Below, piece after piece: positions 1 through 47,214 of a DNA stretch of 64,000 bases. The notes beneath the pieces are model-generated. The model was given only the letters and a program-made list of their open reading frames with translations, made no database searches and had not been told where the DNA came from. The DNA is taken from positions 1 through 64,000 of the forward strand of contig NZ_FQZA01000004.1 of the NCBI RefSeq assembly GCF_900141995.1, in the 5' to 3' direction. The stretch's first letter is position 1, and every line of letters starts with the position of its first letter. Both the position numbers and the translations under genes were made by a program. This DNA is from Palleronia salina. GTDB taxonomy: Bacteria > Pseudomonadota > Alphaproteobacteria > Rhodobacterales > Rhodobacteraceae.

Positions 1-100
1 CGCATCGCGGATCGACCGACCTCCTCCCCGGTCGAATTCGTGTCTGGCGGCGGGACCGACCTCCTCCCCGGTCCCGCCGTCCCAAATCTTCCCAAAACTC
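1..100 (+). ncRNA. CcsR / 'cuckoo'-type small RNA, two CCTCCTCCC-loop hairpins (possibly truncated at left edge)
   Basis: Two stem-loops expose the same loop, ACCTCCTCCC. The first has arms at 13-18 and 29-34. The second has an 11-bp perfect stem, 48-58 with 69-79. A small RNA with two hairpins presenting the anti-Shine-Dalgarno-like CCUCCUCCC is the hallmark of the CcsR (cuckoo) RNAs of Rhodobacterales and Rhizobiales. In Rhodobacter sphaeroides these sit in tandem behind a small DUF1127 gene and are induced by stress. The host gene and any earlier copies would lie left of the window. Strand and ends are inferred from the loop sense, since the other strand would read GGGAGGAGG. Confidence 0.72.
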
Positions 101-127
101 GGATGACTGCGCACCACGTCGCGGCGA

Positions 128-157
128 CCGACCTGGCAAGGTCGGGATCGCGTTCGT
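128..157 (+). terminator. Possible terminator of the small-RNA transcript
   Basis: A 7-bp perfect stem (128-134 with 139-145) closes a 4-base loop. It is followed by a mixed stretch with some T (GTTCGTTTCG). It lacks the CCTCCTCCC loop of the two hairpins before it and could end that transcript. The T-tract is poor, so the call is tentative. Confidence 0.35.
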
Positions 158-203
158 TTCGCATGTGAAAGCAGGCGGCCCCGGGCCGCGCACCGGGATG
201 GTG

Positions 204-2600
204 CTAGAACGGCACGTCGTCCGCGCGGTCCGCATCGACGATGAATTTCGCAACGACCTTCTTCTGGCCCGCCTTGTCGAAGCAGATGTCGAGCTTGTCG
301 CCCTCGATCGCCATCACCGTGCCGTAGCCGAATTTCTTGTGGAACACGCGGTCGCCATCGGTGAAGGACGACACGGCGTCCAGGTCGATGGTCATGTTGC
401 GCTGTTCGCTGGGCTGGCGCATCGGCCGCTGGCTGCTGCGTTCCTGAAGACGCCGCCATCCCGGAGAATTGTAGACATCGGCCCGGCCGGCCCGGTCGTG
501 CAGGTCGCTTTGGCTGGCGGCCATGATGGCGGGCGATGCGCTGGACGCCATGCCGGCCGCGCCGTACCCGCCGCCGTAGAGCCCGGGCGGTGTCAGGACC
601 TCGACATGGGCTTCGGGCAACTCGTCGATGAAGCGCGACGGCAACGCGGATTGCCACTGGCCATAGACCCGGCGGTTGGCGGCGAAGCTGATGGTGCAGA
701 CCCGCTCGGCCCGGGTGATGCCCACGTAGGCCAAACGCCGTTCTTCCTCGAGTCCCTTGAGACCGGATTCGTCCATGCTGCGCTGGGACGGGAACAGTCC
801 GTCCTCCCAGCCCGGCAGGAAGACGGCGGGAAACTCCAGCCCCTTGGCCGCGTGCAGCGTCATGATGCTGACCTTGGCGCCGCCCTCCTCGGTTTCGTTG
901 TCCATGATCAGCGCGACGTGTTCGAGGAAGCCTTGCAGGTTCTCGAACTGCTCCAGCGCCTTGATCAGCTCTTTGAGGTTTTCCAGCCGGCCGGGCGCCT
1001 CGGGCGTCTTGTCGTTCTGCCAATGGGCGGTGTAGCCGGATTCTTCCAGGATGACCTCGGCCAGCTCGATATGGCTTTGATCGGGGTCGCGGGTCATGCG
1101 GTGCCAACGCGCGAGGCCATCGACCAGCACGCGCAGCTCGGCCGCGCCCTTGCCGGTCAGGCCCTTGTCGGCCAGCAGGATGCGCGCGCCGTCGATCAGC
1201 GTGGTGCCGTTGTCGCGGGCCGCGCGCTGGATCTTCTGCTGGGCCTTATCGCCCAGCCCGCGCTTGGGGGTGTTCACGATCCGCTCGAACGCCAGGTCGT
1301 CGTCGGGCGACACGGCGCAGCGGAAATAGGCCATGGCATCGCGAATCTCGAGCCGTTCGTAGAAGCGCGGCCCGCCGATCACCCGATAGGGCAGGCCGAT
1401 GGTCAGGAACCGGTCCTCGAACGCGCGCATCTGGTGCGACGCGCGCACGAGGATCGCCTGGTCGTCCAGCGACACCGGTTCCATGCCCCGCGTGCCGCGA
1501 GACATCGATTCGACCTCTTCGCCGATCCAGCGCGCCTCTTCCTCGCCGTCCCAGTGGCCGATCAGGCGCACGCGCTCGCCCTCGGTCAGGTCGGTGAACA
1601 GCGTCTTGCCCAGCCGCCCCTTGTTGGCGTCGATGACGCCGGCGGCCGCGGCCAGGATGTGAGGGGTCGAGCGATAGTTCTGCTCGAGCCGGACGACCTT
1701 GGCGCCCGGAAAGTCCTTCTCGAACCGCAGGATGTTGCCCACCTCGGCGCCGCGCCAGCCATAGATCGACTGGTCGTCGTCGCCCACGCAGCAGATGTTC
1801 CGGTGCCCCTGCGCCAGAAGCCGCAGCCACAGGTACTGGGCCACGTTGGTATCCTGGTACTCGTCCACCAGGATATAGCGGAACCAGCGCTGGTACTGCG
1901 CCAGAACGTCGGGATGGTCCTGGAAGATGGTGACCATGTGCAGCAGCAGGTCGCCGAAATCGACGGCGTTCAAAGCTTTCAGCCGCTGCTGGTAATAGTC
2001 GTAAAGCTCGGTGCCGCGGTGGTTGAAGGCACCCGCCTCCGAGGTCGGGACCTTCGCCGGTGTCCAGGCCCGGTTCTTCCAGTGGTCGATGATGCCCGCC
2101 AGCTGCCGGGGCGGCCAGCGCTTCTCGTCGATGCTCTCGGCGACGACCAGCTGCTTGAGCAGGCGGATCTGGTCATCGGTATCGAGGATGGTGAAGTTCG
2201 ATTTCAGCCCCACCAGCTCGGCGTGGCGCCGCAGCAGCTTGACGCAGATCGCGTGGAAGGTGCCGAGCCACGGCATCCCTTCGACCGTCTGGCCCAGGAG
2301 GCTGCTCACCCGCTCCTTCATCTCGCGCGCGACCTTGTTGGTGAAGGTCACGGCCAGGATCTCGTTCGGGCGGGCCTTTCCCTGGGTCATCAGGTGCGCG
2401 ATGCGGGCCGTCAGCGCGCGGGTCTTGCCGGTGCCCGCCCCCGCCAGCATCAGGACCGGTCCGTCCAGCGTTTCGACCGCTTCGCGCTGCGCCGGGTTCA
2501 GACCGTCAAGATAAGGCGCGGGCCGTGCGGATTGCATGGCACGCTGCGACAGCGGCACGCTGGCGGCGTCGAACGCGTCGGCTTCGTCGAAACTGCTCAT
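204..2600 (-). CDS. uvrD: UvrD/PcrA-type ATP-dependent DNA helicase
   Basis: Superfamily 1A 3'-5' DNA helicase of 798 residues, expected to act in nucleotide excision and mismatch repair and in clearing replication forks. Visible motifs are Walker A AGAGTGKT (53-60), Walker B DEYQD (246-250), motif III DDQSIYGWRGA (275-285) and a late YVGITRAER motif. The C-terminus, after a linker rich in Ala and Ser, is the Tudor-like FTDGDRVFHKKFGYGTV domain that in PcrA/UvrD contacts RNA polymerase. The start is the first ATG after the upstream gap. An alphaproteobacterial LexA box lies 43 bases upstream, so SOS control is likely. A short GC hairpin just past the stop (175-189) could act as a weak terminator. 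Confidence 0.93.
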   Translation of the reverse strand: MSSFDEADAFDAASVPLSQRAMQSARPAPYLDGLNPAQREAVETLDGPVLMLAGAGTGKTRALTARIAHLMTQGKARPNEILAVTFTNKVAREMKERVSSLLGQTVEGMPWLGTFHAICVKLLRRHAELVGLKSNFTILDTDDQIRLLKQLVVAESIDEKRWPPRQLAGIIDHWKNRAWTPAKVPTSEAGAFNHRGTELYDYYQQRLKALNAVDFGDLLLHMVTIFQDHPDVLAQYQRWFRYILVDEYQDTNVAQYLWLRLLAQGHRNICCVGDDDQSIYGWRGAEVGNILRFEKDFPGAKVVRLEQNYRSTPHILAAAAGVIDANKGRLGKTLFTDLTEGERVRLIGHWDGEEEARWIGEEVESMSRGTRGMEPVSLDDQAILVRASHQMRAFEDRFLTIGLPYRVIGGPRFYERLEIRDAMAYFRCAVSPDDDLAFERIVNTPKRGLGDKAQQKIQRAARDNGTTLIDGARILLADKGLTGKGAAELRVLVDGLARWHRMTRDPDQSHIELAEVILEESGYTAHWQNDKTPEAPGRLENLKELIKALEQFENLQGFLEHVALIMDNETEEGGAKVSIMTLHAAKGLEFPAVFLPGWEDGLFPSQRSMDESGLKGLEEERRLAYVGITRAERVCTISFAANRRVYGQWQSALPSRFIDELPEAHVEVLTPPGLYGGGYGAAGMASSASPAIMAASQSDLHDRAGRADVYNSPGWRRLQERSSQRPMRQPSEQRNMTIDLDAVSSFTDGDRVFHKKFGYGTVMAIEGDKLDICFDKAGQKKVVAKFIVDADRADDVPF

Positions 2601-3639: not shown

Positions 3640-4350
3640 ATGTGGAACGCCCTCGTCTTCGCCGCGCTCGCCGGTCTCGCCATCCCGCTGGGCGGGCTGT
3701 GCGCGCTGGCGCTCGGCCGTTCGGATACCCCGATGGCCGCATGGGGCCACGGGATCGTCGCCTTCGGCGGCGGGGCACTGGTCTCGGCAGTTGCGCTGGT
3801 GCTGGTGCCCGACGGCATCGCGTCCCTGCCCGCTATCCCCGCGCTGGTGGCGTTCGTCCTGGGCGGCGTCGGCTTCGCGGCCCTCGACGGGTGGATGAAG
3901 CGGCGCATGGGCAATCGCGGGCAGCTTCTGGCGATGCTGACCGATTTCATCCCCGAATCCGTGGCGCTCGGGGCGCTCTTCGCCACCGGGGGCGCGGGCG
4001 GGCCGCTGCTGGCCATGCTGATCGCGCTGCAGAACCTGCCCGAGGCCTTCAACGCGTTCGGCGAGGCGCGCAGCGGCGGGCAAAGCCCGCGCCGGCTGCT
4101 GACGGCTTTCGCGGCCATCGCCTGCCTCGGCCCGGCCTCGGCCGCGTTCGGACTTCTTGTCCTGGCCGATCGCGAGGCGCTGCTGGGCGCGCTCATGCTG
4201 TTCGCCGCGGGCGGGATCCTTTACCTGGTGTTCGAGGACGTGGCGCCGGGCGCCCCGGCCGAGGGGTCTGTCCTGCCGCCGCTGGGCGCCGTCGGTGGCT
4301 TCGCGCTGGGGCTGGCGGGGCACATGGCGCTGGCCGGCAGCGGCGGCTGA
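3640..4350 (+). CDS. ZIP-family metal transporter homologue
   Basis: A 236-residue integral membrane protein with about eight hydrophobic segments, of the ZIP (ZupT/GufA) family that moves divalent cations such as zinc into the cytoplasm. The two metal-site helices are recognisable as DFIPESVALGALF (about 107-119) and ALQNLPEAFNAF (about 129-140). In typical ZIPs these read HNxPEG and HxxPEG/HE, so the usual His residues are replaced by Asp and Gln while the Pro-Glu pairs are kept. Selectivity may therefore differ from a standard zinc importer. It sits alone between a terminator and the next gene on the same strand, with a 49-base gap. Confidence 0.75.
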   Translation: MWNALVFAALAGLAIPLGGLCALALGRSDTPMAAWGHGIVAFGGGALVSAVALVLVPDGIASLPAIPALVAFVLGGVGFAALDGWMKRRMGNRGQLLAMLTDFIPESVALGALFATGGAGGPLLAMLIALQNLPEAFNAFGEARSGGQSPRRLLTAFAAIACLGPASAAFGLLVLADREALLGALMLFAAGGILYLVFEDVAPGAPAEGSVLPPLGAVGGFALGLAGHMALAGSGG

Positions 4351-5530: not shown

Positions 5531-5636
5531 CCCCGGATCGGGGCAAGGGACAAATGCGGAACTCTGAAAAATCGAAATCGCGCGAATTTCATCGTGGGCG
5601 ATAACACTTCGTTCACAAGCGTTACCTAGCCTTACC

Positions 5637-11141: not shown

Positions 11142-11216
11142 GCGGGCGTAGCTCAGGGGTAGAGCATTACCTTGCCAAGGTAAGGGTCGTGAGTTCGAAT
11201 CTCATCGCCCGCTCCA
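11142..11216 (+). tRNA. tRNA-Gly (GCC), copy 1
   Basis: A complete 75-base cloverleaf with the CCA end encoded. The acceptor arm GCGGGCG pairs with CGCCCGC, the anticodon loop TTGCCAA gives anticodon GCC, and the T-loop is TTCGAAT. It is identical to the second copy 21 bases downstream. Confidence 0.98.
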
Positions 11217-11237: not shown

Positions 11238-11312
11238 GCGGGCGTAGCTCAGGGGTAGAGCATTACCTTGCCAAGGTAAGGGTCGTGAGTTCGAATCTCA
11301 TCGCCCGCTCCA
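11238..11312 (+). tRNA. tRNA-Gly (GCC), copy 2
   Basis: Base-for-base identical to the first tRNA-Gly, including the encoded CCA, after a 21-base spacer. The close spacing suggests one primary transcript cut into two tRNAs, ending at the terminator at 11324. Confidence 0.98.
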
Positions 11313-46724: not shown

Positions 46725-46831
46725 GCTGTTCTCTCCTCAACGCGGGGGATCGGCGTCAGATTCTGGGTTGAGAGCGCCTTTTACGCCCCGCCGCGCGATA
46801 GTCAACCCGCGACCGGGCGGCAAGACGATTG

Positions 46832-47214
46832 TGCGCGGACGGCCTGTAAGCCGGATCCTGTCCCCCGTGTCGCCACGGGTGGATGATCATTCATCTGGGC
46901 CTGCCGTTGCCGACAGGCTCGAGCTGCCTACCCGGACCGCTGGGCGGAAGAAGCCCTGGCGCGAAGCCGCGCGGTCCCTATTCGGCATTGCTCCCGGTGG
47001 GGCTTGCCATGCGGGCCGTGTTGCCACGCCCCCGGTGGGCTCTTACCCCACCGTTTCACCCTTGCCCCGGGCGGACCCGGGGCGGTCTGTTTTCTGTGGC
47101 GCTATCCGTCGGGTTGCCCCGCCCGGGCGTTACCCGGCACCGTTTCTTCCCGGAGTCCGGACTTTCCTCGCGCACCGGTCGCCCGGCGCACGCGATCATC
47201 CAGCCATCCGCGCA
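46832..47214 (-). ncRNA. rnpB: RNase P RNA
   Basis: Bacterial type A RNase P RNA of about 383 bases. The minus strand contains the conserved GAGGAAAGTCCGGACTCC near the 5' end and the P4/J11 features AGAAAACAGACCGCC and CAAGGGTGAAACGGTGGGGTAAGAG (given in parts), and ends ATCCGGCTTACAGGCCGTC. The terminal P1 helix pairs TGCGCGGATGG with CCGTCCGCGCA. It begins only nine bases after the amidase stop, so its promoter must be inside that gene. Ends are set from the P1 helix and may differ by a few bases. Confidence 0.96.

Follow-up and report, generated by a model that had tools for sequence, protein, structure and literature searches.

A probable tandem CcsR/cuckoo-type RNA array, broken at a contig end, downstream of a DUF1127 gene in Palleronia salina

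What are the two hairpins with the same loop that stand at the very beginning of this DNA? The window, as we call the whole stretch of 64,000 nucleotides that was analyzed, is bases 1-64000 of contig C23 in a genome of 30 contigs (3.57 Mb), and its base 1 is the contig end. Identical ACCTCCTCCC loops occupy positions 19-28 and 59-68 of the + strand, within 6-81. We hold with good confidence that a tandem array of cuckoo/CcsR-type small RNAs (sRNAs) reaches its 3′ end in window 1-85. The array would form the 3′ untranslated region of a DUF1127 (ccaF1-like) mRNA that starts on another contig, C17.

Hairpins at the left edge of the window

The features of the left edge are the following.

6..42, + strand: cuckoo/CcsR hairpin 1, loop ACCTCCTCCC at 19-28 (RNA fold and Rfam CcsR1 alignment)
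46..81, + strand: cuckoo/CcsR hairpin 2, 13-pair stem, Watson-Crick throughout its 11 inner pairs, with the loop ACCTCCTCCC at 59-68 (RNA fold)
2..85, + strand: two-hairpin CcsR-type unit (Rfam RF02791, 47.5 bits, E 2.4e-9, gathering score 65.3)
128..145, no strand assigned: 7-bp hairpin (128-134 with 139-145), loop GGCA, between the array and the pcrA stop (fold)
204..2600, - strand: pcrA, a UvrD-family helicase; open frame to 2609, first Met at 2600 (Pfam UvrD-helicase, PcrA_UvrD_tudor)

An earlier note on this DNA had described two hairpins with the same loop, the second on a perfect 11-bp stem. Folding of bases 1-175 bears this out, the stem of hairpin 1 carrying one bulge. The minimum free energy is -78.9 kcal/mol (z = -3.6), and none of 200 shuffles was equally stable. 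A scan of the window returned this pair as the sole case of identical 10-nt loops on stems of at least 5 pairs (G-U allowed) lying no more than 60 nt apart; no pair of such kind appeared in 30 first-order Markov shuffles of the window.

The suggestion that the third hairpin (128-145) might be a terminator fared less well. The fold is real, but no T run follows it on the + strand, and terminator scans of window 1-400 found no terminator-like site; we do not recognize it as an intrinsic terminator. We do not treat a Rho-independent terminator as a defining trait of CcsR arrays, since by a crude test 15 of 72 array tails carry one (in 13 cases it overlaps with the last CCUCC hairpin), as do 4 of 69 control stretches.

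Among the Rfam models, CcsR1 (RF02791) matches window 2-85, but the score stays under the gathering threshold, as does that of C17 13-96 (41.0 bits). The ar14 model (RF02344) gives 38.3 and 33.2 bits, and its gathering score of 58.8 is not reached either. The array is of the CcsR/cuckoo type, an already known kind of RNA, and is not a formal member of RF02791. This situation is common in the family: CcsR1 is matched at E <= 0.001 in 121 of 149 genomes, though the model reaches its cut-off in few of them (8 of the 149). One of 14 control genomes was matched, under the cut-off. PhaR-domain matches at E < 1e-14 occur in 15 family genomes, all of which except G062 are absent from the CcsR1 matches; this suggests a sub-lineage without arrays. 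The window also contains a tandem pair of tRNA-Gly(GCC) genes that score equally in Rfam (11142-11216 and 11238-11312, + strand) and a bacterial class A RNase P RNA (46831-47211, - strand, 294.7 bits).

The ends of contigs C23 and C17

Genome-wide, exact ACCTCCTCCC has five sites: window 19 and 59, and three at C17:30-175 (- strand). Read in reverse, C17 presents a divergent mraZ, a DUF1127 open reading frame, three hairpins and then the contig end. The reading frame (99 aa from the first TTG, 71 aa from the ATG of MSMMSQ) matches Pfam PF06568 with 49.3 bits against a cut-off of 23.3, and ends just 5′ of the C17 hairpins on the same strand. The further copies and the DUF1127 gene that the earlier note proposed to look for exist, at the start of C17; together with the CcsR1 match and the synteny described below, they support its assignment of the hairpins to the CcsR/cuckoo family. 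The window unit 2-85 is paralogous to C17:13-96 (- strand) and is probably the last unit of the array. In the window, pcrA is convergent to the array and is the expected right flank, where the conserved locus ends.

The 71-aa DUF1127 protein is 100% identical to a protein of Palleronia pelagia DSM 26893, and MraZ is 99.4% identical; the P. pelagia record breaks off 154 nt past the DUF1127 match, within the repeat. In our genome, the reversed C17 terminates in GGCCCC and the window opens with CGCATCGCGG, a unit junction inside C17 being GGCCCCGCATCGCGG. Comparison of the two contig ends gave no overlap of at least 10 bases. The join therefore rests on synteny, and units may be missing between C17 and C23.

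The synteny comes from 70 other genomes, one locus per genome, with the weakest CcsR1 matches unrepresented. Defining an array as two or more exact CCTCCTCC loops leaves 69 of the 70 loci (L094 drops out), with 2 to 14 loops each. DUF1127 lies directly upstream in 54 of the 69 arrays, and for 45 of these 54 its frame stops 17-42 nt short of the first loop; the remaining 15 arrays lack an adjacent DUF1127 gene. Within the stretches fetched, mraZ is upstream and divergent in 54 of the 69 and pcrA downstream and convergent in 47; both flanks are present in 45, both flanks plus DUF1127 in 33, and neither flank in 13. The order mraZ-DUF1127-array-pcrA is thus found in many relatives. Because 45 of the 69 arrays are flanked by mraZ and pcrA, as C17 and C23 together would be, the two ends very probably belong to one array of at least five hairpins that was split by the assembler. 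The same-genus genome G066 has its array without an adjacent DUF1127 gene and three DUF1127 matches on other contigs. In G094, two copies of a single stand-alone two-hairpin unit (L044 on C1, L045 on C2) share their upstream stretch; mraZ, pcrA and DUF1127 were not found within the surrounding 16 kb, nor was a double-box promoter of the kind discussed below. They are perhaps a mobile or duplicated cuckoo unit.

As the units were selected by exact CCTCCTCC, the stems rather than the loops are the evidence for conservation. Across 70 aligned two-hairpin units, both hairpins keep CCTCCTCCC unchanged, an invariance that comes from the selection and is informative at the ninth base only. RNAalifold recovered hairpin 2 from this alignment, and each of its 11 pairs shows one or more double-sided changes; the alignment is gapped and did not yield hairpin 1. 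Stems of at least 6 pairs support 304 of 500 array loops vs. 2 of 53 loops outside arrays. When the 3′ arms were re-dealt, a mean of 53.9 and a maximum of 65 of the 500 loops sat on such stems.

Could the hairpins be chance or simple-sequence structures without function, for example terminators that serve pcrA or the upstream operon? GC-rich DNA easily yields long stems, which are not rare by themselves: 58 stems of at least 11 pairs occurred across the 30 shuffled windows. The identical loops, the covarying stems, the place conserved family-wide and the missing T tract argue so strongly the other way that we give this explanation almost no credit. Somewhat less implausible, but still very unlikely, is that the C23 and C17 hairpins are two separate arrays, the window copy standing independently beside pcrA. 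The contig ends indeed lack an exact overlap of at least 10 bases, and G094 shows that stand-alone two-hairpin copies exist elsewhere. However, an array between mraZ and pcrA is the arrangement of 45 of the 69 relatives, C17 supplies the mraZ flank and C23 the pcrA flank, and both contigs break inside the repeat, just as the P. pelagia record does. A single array interrupted by the assembly remains our reading. Cuckoo arrays can evidently break assemblies, and contig ends near pcrA or mraZ may conceal others.

The putative promoter of the DUF1127-array operon

How the operon might be controlled was approached through the upstream regions of 57 loci (54 DUF1127 arrays of relatives, our own locus, L038 and L039), along with 17 arrays without DUF1127 (15 of the 69 and the two extra copies in G094). 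A conserved block lies upstream of the DUF1127 gene. Its downstream part is TTGTGCANNNGCAGCA; 52 of the 57 loci match it at all 13 positions, whereas shuffled sequence reaches 7-10 of the 13. At our own locus, the TTG of TTG-N18-CTATCT is 69 nt before the ATG and is part of this block. TTG-N16-19-CYATNT is present in 29 of the 57 upstream regions and in none of the 57 when taken 500 nt further up (shuffle mean 0.74). The ccaF1-CcsR operon of R. sphaeroides is described as having an RpoHI/RpoHII promoter (PMC10253847), and the TTG of the -35 element as important for both sigma factors (PMC3441632). The promoter here, TTG-N18-CYATNT, would be RpoH-like.

Each half of the block fits TGCR-N6-GCAW. 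Such a box is present at least once in all 57 DUF1127 arrays and at least twice in 52 (mononucleotide shuffles, 0.84 and 0), and among the arrays without DUF1127 one is found in 14 of 17 and two in 9 of 17 (shuffles, 0.32 and 0), counts to be read with the form having been relaxed after the promoters were inspected and with related genomes not being independent. The strict form TGCA-N6-GCAT, to which our own upstream box TGCAGATGCTGCAT conforms, occurs twice in 25 of the 57 and in 0 of the 17. TGCR-N3-GCW-GCAW occurs twice in 30 of the 57 and in 4 of the 17, with a background of 13 in 798,884 nt; 20 of these pairs are spaced 40 nt apart and 13 are spaced 39 nt apart, with a single pair at 114 nt. 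Placing the TTG at -36 to -34, we infer that the boxes start at about -33 and, given the 39-40-nt spacing, at about -72 (-72/-73).

In rhizobia, LsrB activates the sRNA NfeR1, which carries three CCUCCUCCC hairpins, and the site it uses is TGCA-N6-GCAT at -72 to about -60, in a promoter described as sigma-70 type, not RpoH (PMC10746234). In Agrobacterium, the LysR-type regulator VtlR drives the expression of AbcR1 as well as that of a small protein (PMC7486931). By analogy, control of DUF1127-array transcription by a LysR-type regulator of the LsrB/VtlR kind is the best lead and is what we predict: such a regulator, bound to the two TGCR-N6-GCAW boxes at about -72 and -33, would set transcription. 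Going further, we tentatively propose, as something quite possible but which we would not yet call probable, an ancient alphaproteobacterial circuit. An LsrB/VtlR-type regulator would act on the double TGCR-N6-GCAW (about -72 and -33) of the Rhodobacteraceae DUF1127-sRNA operon and on the -72 box of rhizobial NfeR1, the box pair also being at some other DUF1127 genes and at some arrays without DUF1127. Acyl-CoA, C1 and uptake genes would be among the targets of the anti-Shine-Dalgarno loops. Being concrete and strongly conserved, the promoter element offers a way to test in R. sphaeroides which regulator acts upstream of CcsR.

Some related genes lie outside the arrays. L114 (G066:C10) and L116 (G094:C1) are DUF1127 genes away from any CCTCCTCC loop and have the full double-box promoter, the boxes 39 nt apart. 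In our own genome, L158 (G000:C29:142900-144600, about 490-826, + strand) has a 73-aa DUF1127-like gene at 605-826 (family HMM E 2.6e-12), a -33 box TTGTGCAGGCGCAGCAT as at the array, and upstream GCTGCATAGCGGC; there was no Pfam match for the gene, no full TGCR-N6-GCAW upstream, and no array was seen. A small open reading frame at L159 was rejected as DUF1127 (E 0.25).

The boxes could instead be operators of PhaR, the PHB-granule repressor, in which case the array would be derepressed when the storage polymer forms. PhaR of R. sphaeroides binds CTGCNNNGCAG (PMC12542648), and this exact sequence is found in 37 of the 57 upstream regions of DUF1127 arrays, against a background of 29 in 827,924 nt. 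Our own upstream box overlaps CTGC-ATA-GCAG (CTGC-ATR-GCAG), which fits CTGCNNNGCAG, but the -33 box differs in its spacer, of 4 nt and not 3. The site GCTGCACAGCAGCATTG between our own phaC and phaZ nearly equals GCTGCATAGCAGCATTG of the array, and a PhaR-bound site at the Sinorhizobium sRNA gene mmgR is similar to the -33 box. Yet the pha genes of relatives speak for two distinct site types: upstream of phaP, CTGCN3GCAG is present in 29 of 30 and TGCR-N6-GCAW in 1 of 30, and all 30 regions have two sites of the relaxed operator form (in 25 of them 28-29 bp apart), so that the paired phaP operators are a motif different from the double box of the array. Upstream of phaZ, CTGCN3GCAG reaches only 12 of 30. 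Nor is GCTGCANNGCAGC enriched in our own genome (8 matches vs. 12 for the reversed control). TTGTGCANNNGCAGC has 3 matches vs. 0 for its control, being the array, a DUF1127-like gene and one site inside a reading frame.

G003 has no PhaR, PhaP or PhaZ matches and retains an array (one contig, a DUF1127-like reading frame recognized by eye, at least three loops) without the CTGC-N3-GCAG arms and without the -33 box, its best candidate (8 of 13) being at shuffle level; this is as expected of PhaR operators. However, it also retains TGCGCCAGACGCAT, the form typical of LysR-type transcriptional regulators (LTTRs), at the upstream site, with another TGCR-N6-GCAW 68 nt above. Although a single genome, G003 agrees with an LTTR acting at the upstream box; at the -33 box a second factor could act. 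G098 (L108; no PhaR match, 84% complete) retains both boxes. Co-occurrence of PhaR with CcsR is uninformative, PhaR being matched in 144 of 149 genomes, and within the collection of papers searched none linked DUF1127 or CcsR to PhaR. The PhaR reading, favored at first, lost ground once the NfeR1/LsrB box TGCA-N6-GCAT had been recognized and counted at the array promoters; we regard it as unlikely, and weaker than control of the LsrB/VtlR type. The pha locus of our own genome (L157, G000:C23:171000-181000) has the order phaR-phaP-phaC / phaZ, with CTGCN3GCAG before phaP (at 3756) and between phaC and phaZ (the GCTGCACAGCAGCATTG at 5630). Here PhaR is named by Pfam, the others by inspection and from matches in relatives.

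Predicted output and known counterparts

What could such an array do? The DUF1127 gene and the hairpins would be co-transcribed, the precursor being made under stress, and RNase E would cut it with the assistance of the DUF1127 protein. Each hairpin would then display the CCUCCUCCC loop, which contains the anti-Shine-Dalgarno core CCUCC, and the loops may pair with purine-rich Shine-Dalgarno sites, blocking the translation of several mRNAs. The CcsR RNAs of R. sphaeroides are described as processed 3′UTR RNAs, dependent on RNase E and CcaF1 and stress induced (PMC10253847, PMC8625941). It is from these, and from Sinorhizobium (S. meliloti) work on NfeR1, that we infer maturation, stress induction and Shine-Dalgarno blocking for the array described here. 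A role in C1 metabolism and stress, which the earlier note put forward, would likewise be transferred from R. sphaeroides.

Candidate mRNAs were sought with GGGAGGAG-N3-11-ATG, which has 22 matches (21 places) in our own genome and none for the reversed control. Five were dropped (L126, L135, L136, L139 and L141, with frames of at most 64 aa; L135 and L136 are one place) and 17 annotated. The predicted targets above the NCBI cut-off are a BktB thiolase and an acyl-CoA synthetase. By family resemblance at scores under the NCBI cut-offs, or by Pfam, they also include an acyl-CoA dehydrogenase, an AMP-binding CoA ligase and a class III CoA-transferase, and further a FadL-like porin, formate-dehydrogenase-like and CO/xanthine-dehydrogenase-like subunits and parts of ABC transporters. 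L125, L131 and L138 have no NCBIfam match at 1e-8, and L124, L128 and L142 (rhamnosidase part, DUF2147, epimerase) are outside any theme. The control pattern AAGGAGAA has 13 places; as their products were judged only by eye, we claim no enrichment of target themes. Outside the array, ACCTCCTCCC and its complement have no site genome-wide, vs. 5 for the reversed control pattern. Avoidance of the full-length loop target in the genome is possible, the numbers being small.

The small hypothetical proteins driven by VtlR, such as Atu1667, we take to be DUF1127 proteins. The term DUF1127 is absent from the text of PMC7486931, which describes for the LsrB/VtlR regulon (AbcR1, Atu1667) one LysR-type regulator for an sRNA and a small protein; likewise, the box pair here would drive the DUF1127 gene together with the sRNAs. 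The consensus reported for B. abortus and A. tumefaciens, GCAT-N3-TG-N3-T (PMC8844928), differs from the form that we counted, which is that of NfeR1. With rhizobial NfeR1/alpha-r14 (ar14, RF02344), the array shares the same loops, and TGCA-N6-GCAT at about equal distance from the start site (PMC10746234). Unlike the array, NfeR1 is described as consisting of three hairpins, with a sigma-70 promoter of its own and repression by NtrC (PMC10746234), and the array, at 38.3 bits vs. a cut-off of 58.8, is not a formal ar14 member.

The other counterpart is the CcaF1-CcsR1-4 locus of R. sphaeroides (CIN1-type locus, RF02791). The Palleronia array differs in scoring below the Rfam gathering threshold, in having no recognized terminator, and in comprising at least five hairpins, part of it perhaps missing from the assembly. 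The two loci are alike in their plan: hairpins with CCUCCUCCC loops come after a 71-aa DUF1127 gene and share its strand, and TTG...CYATNT, which may be RpoH-like, lies upstream (PMC10253847).
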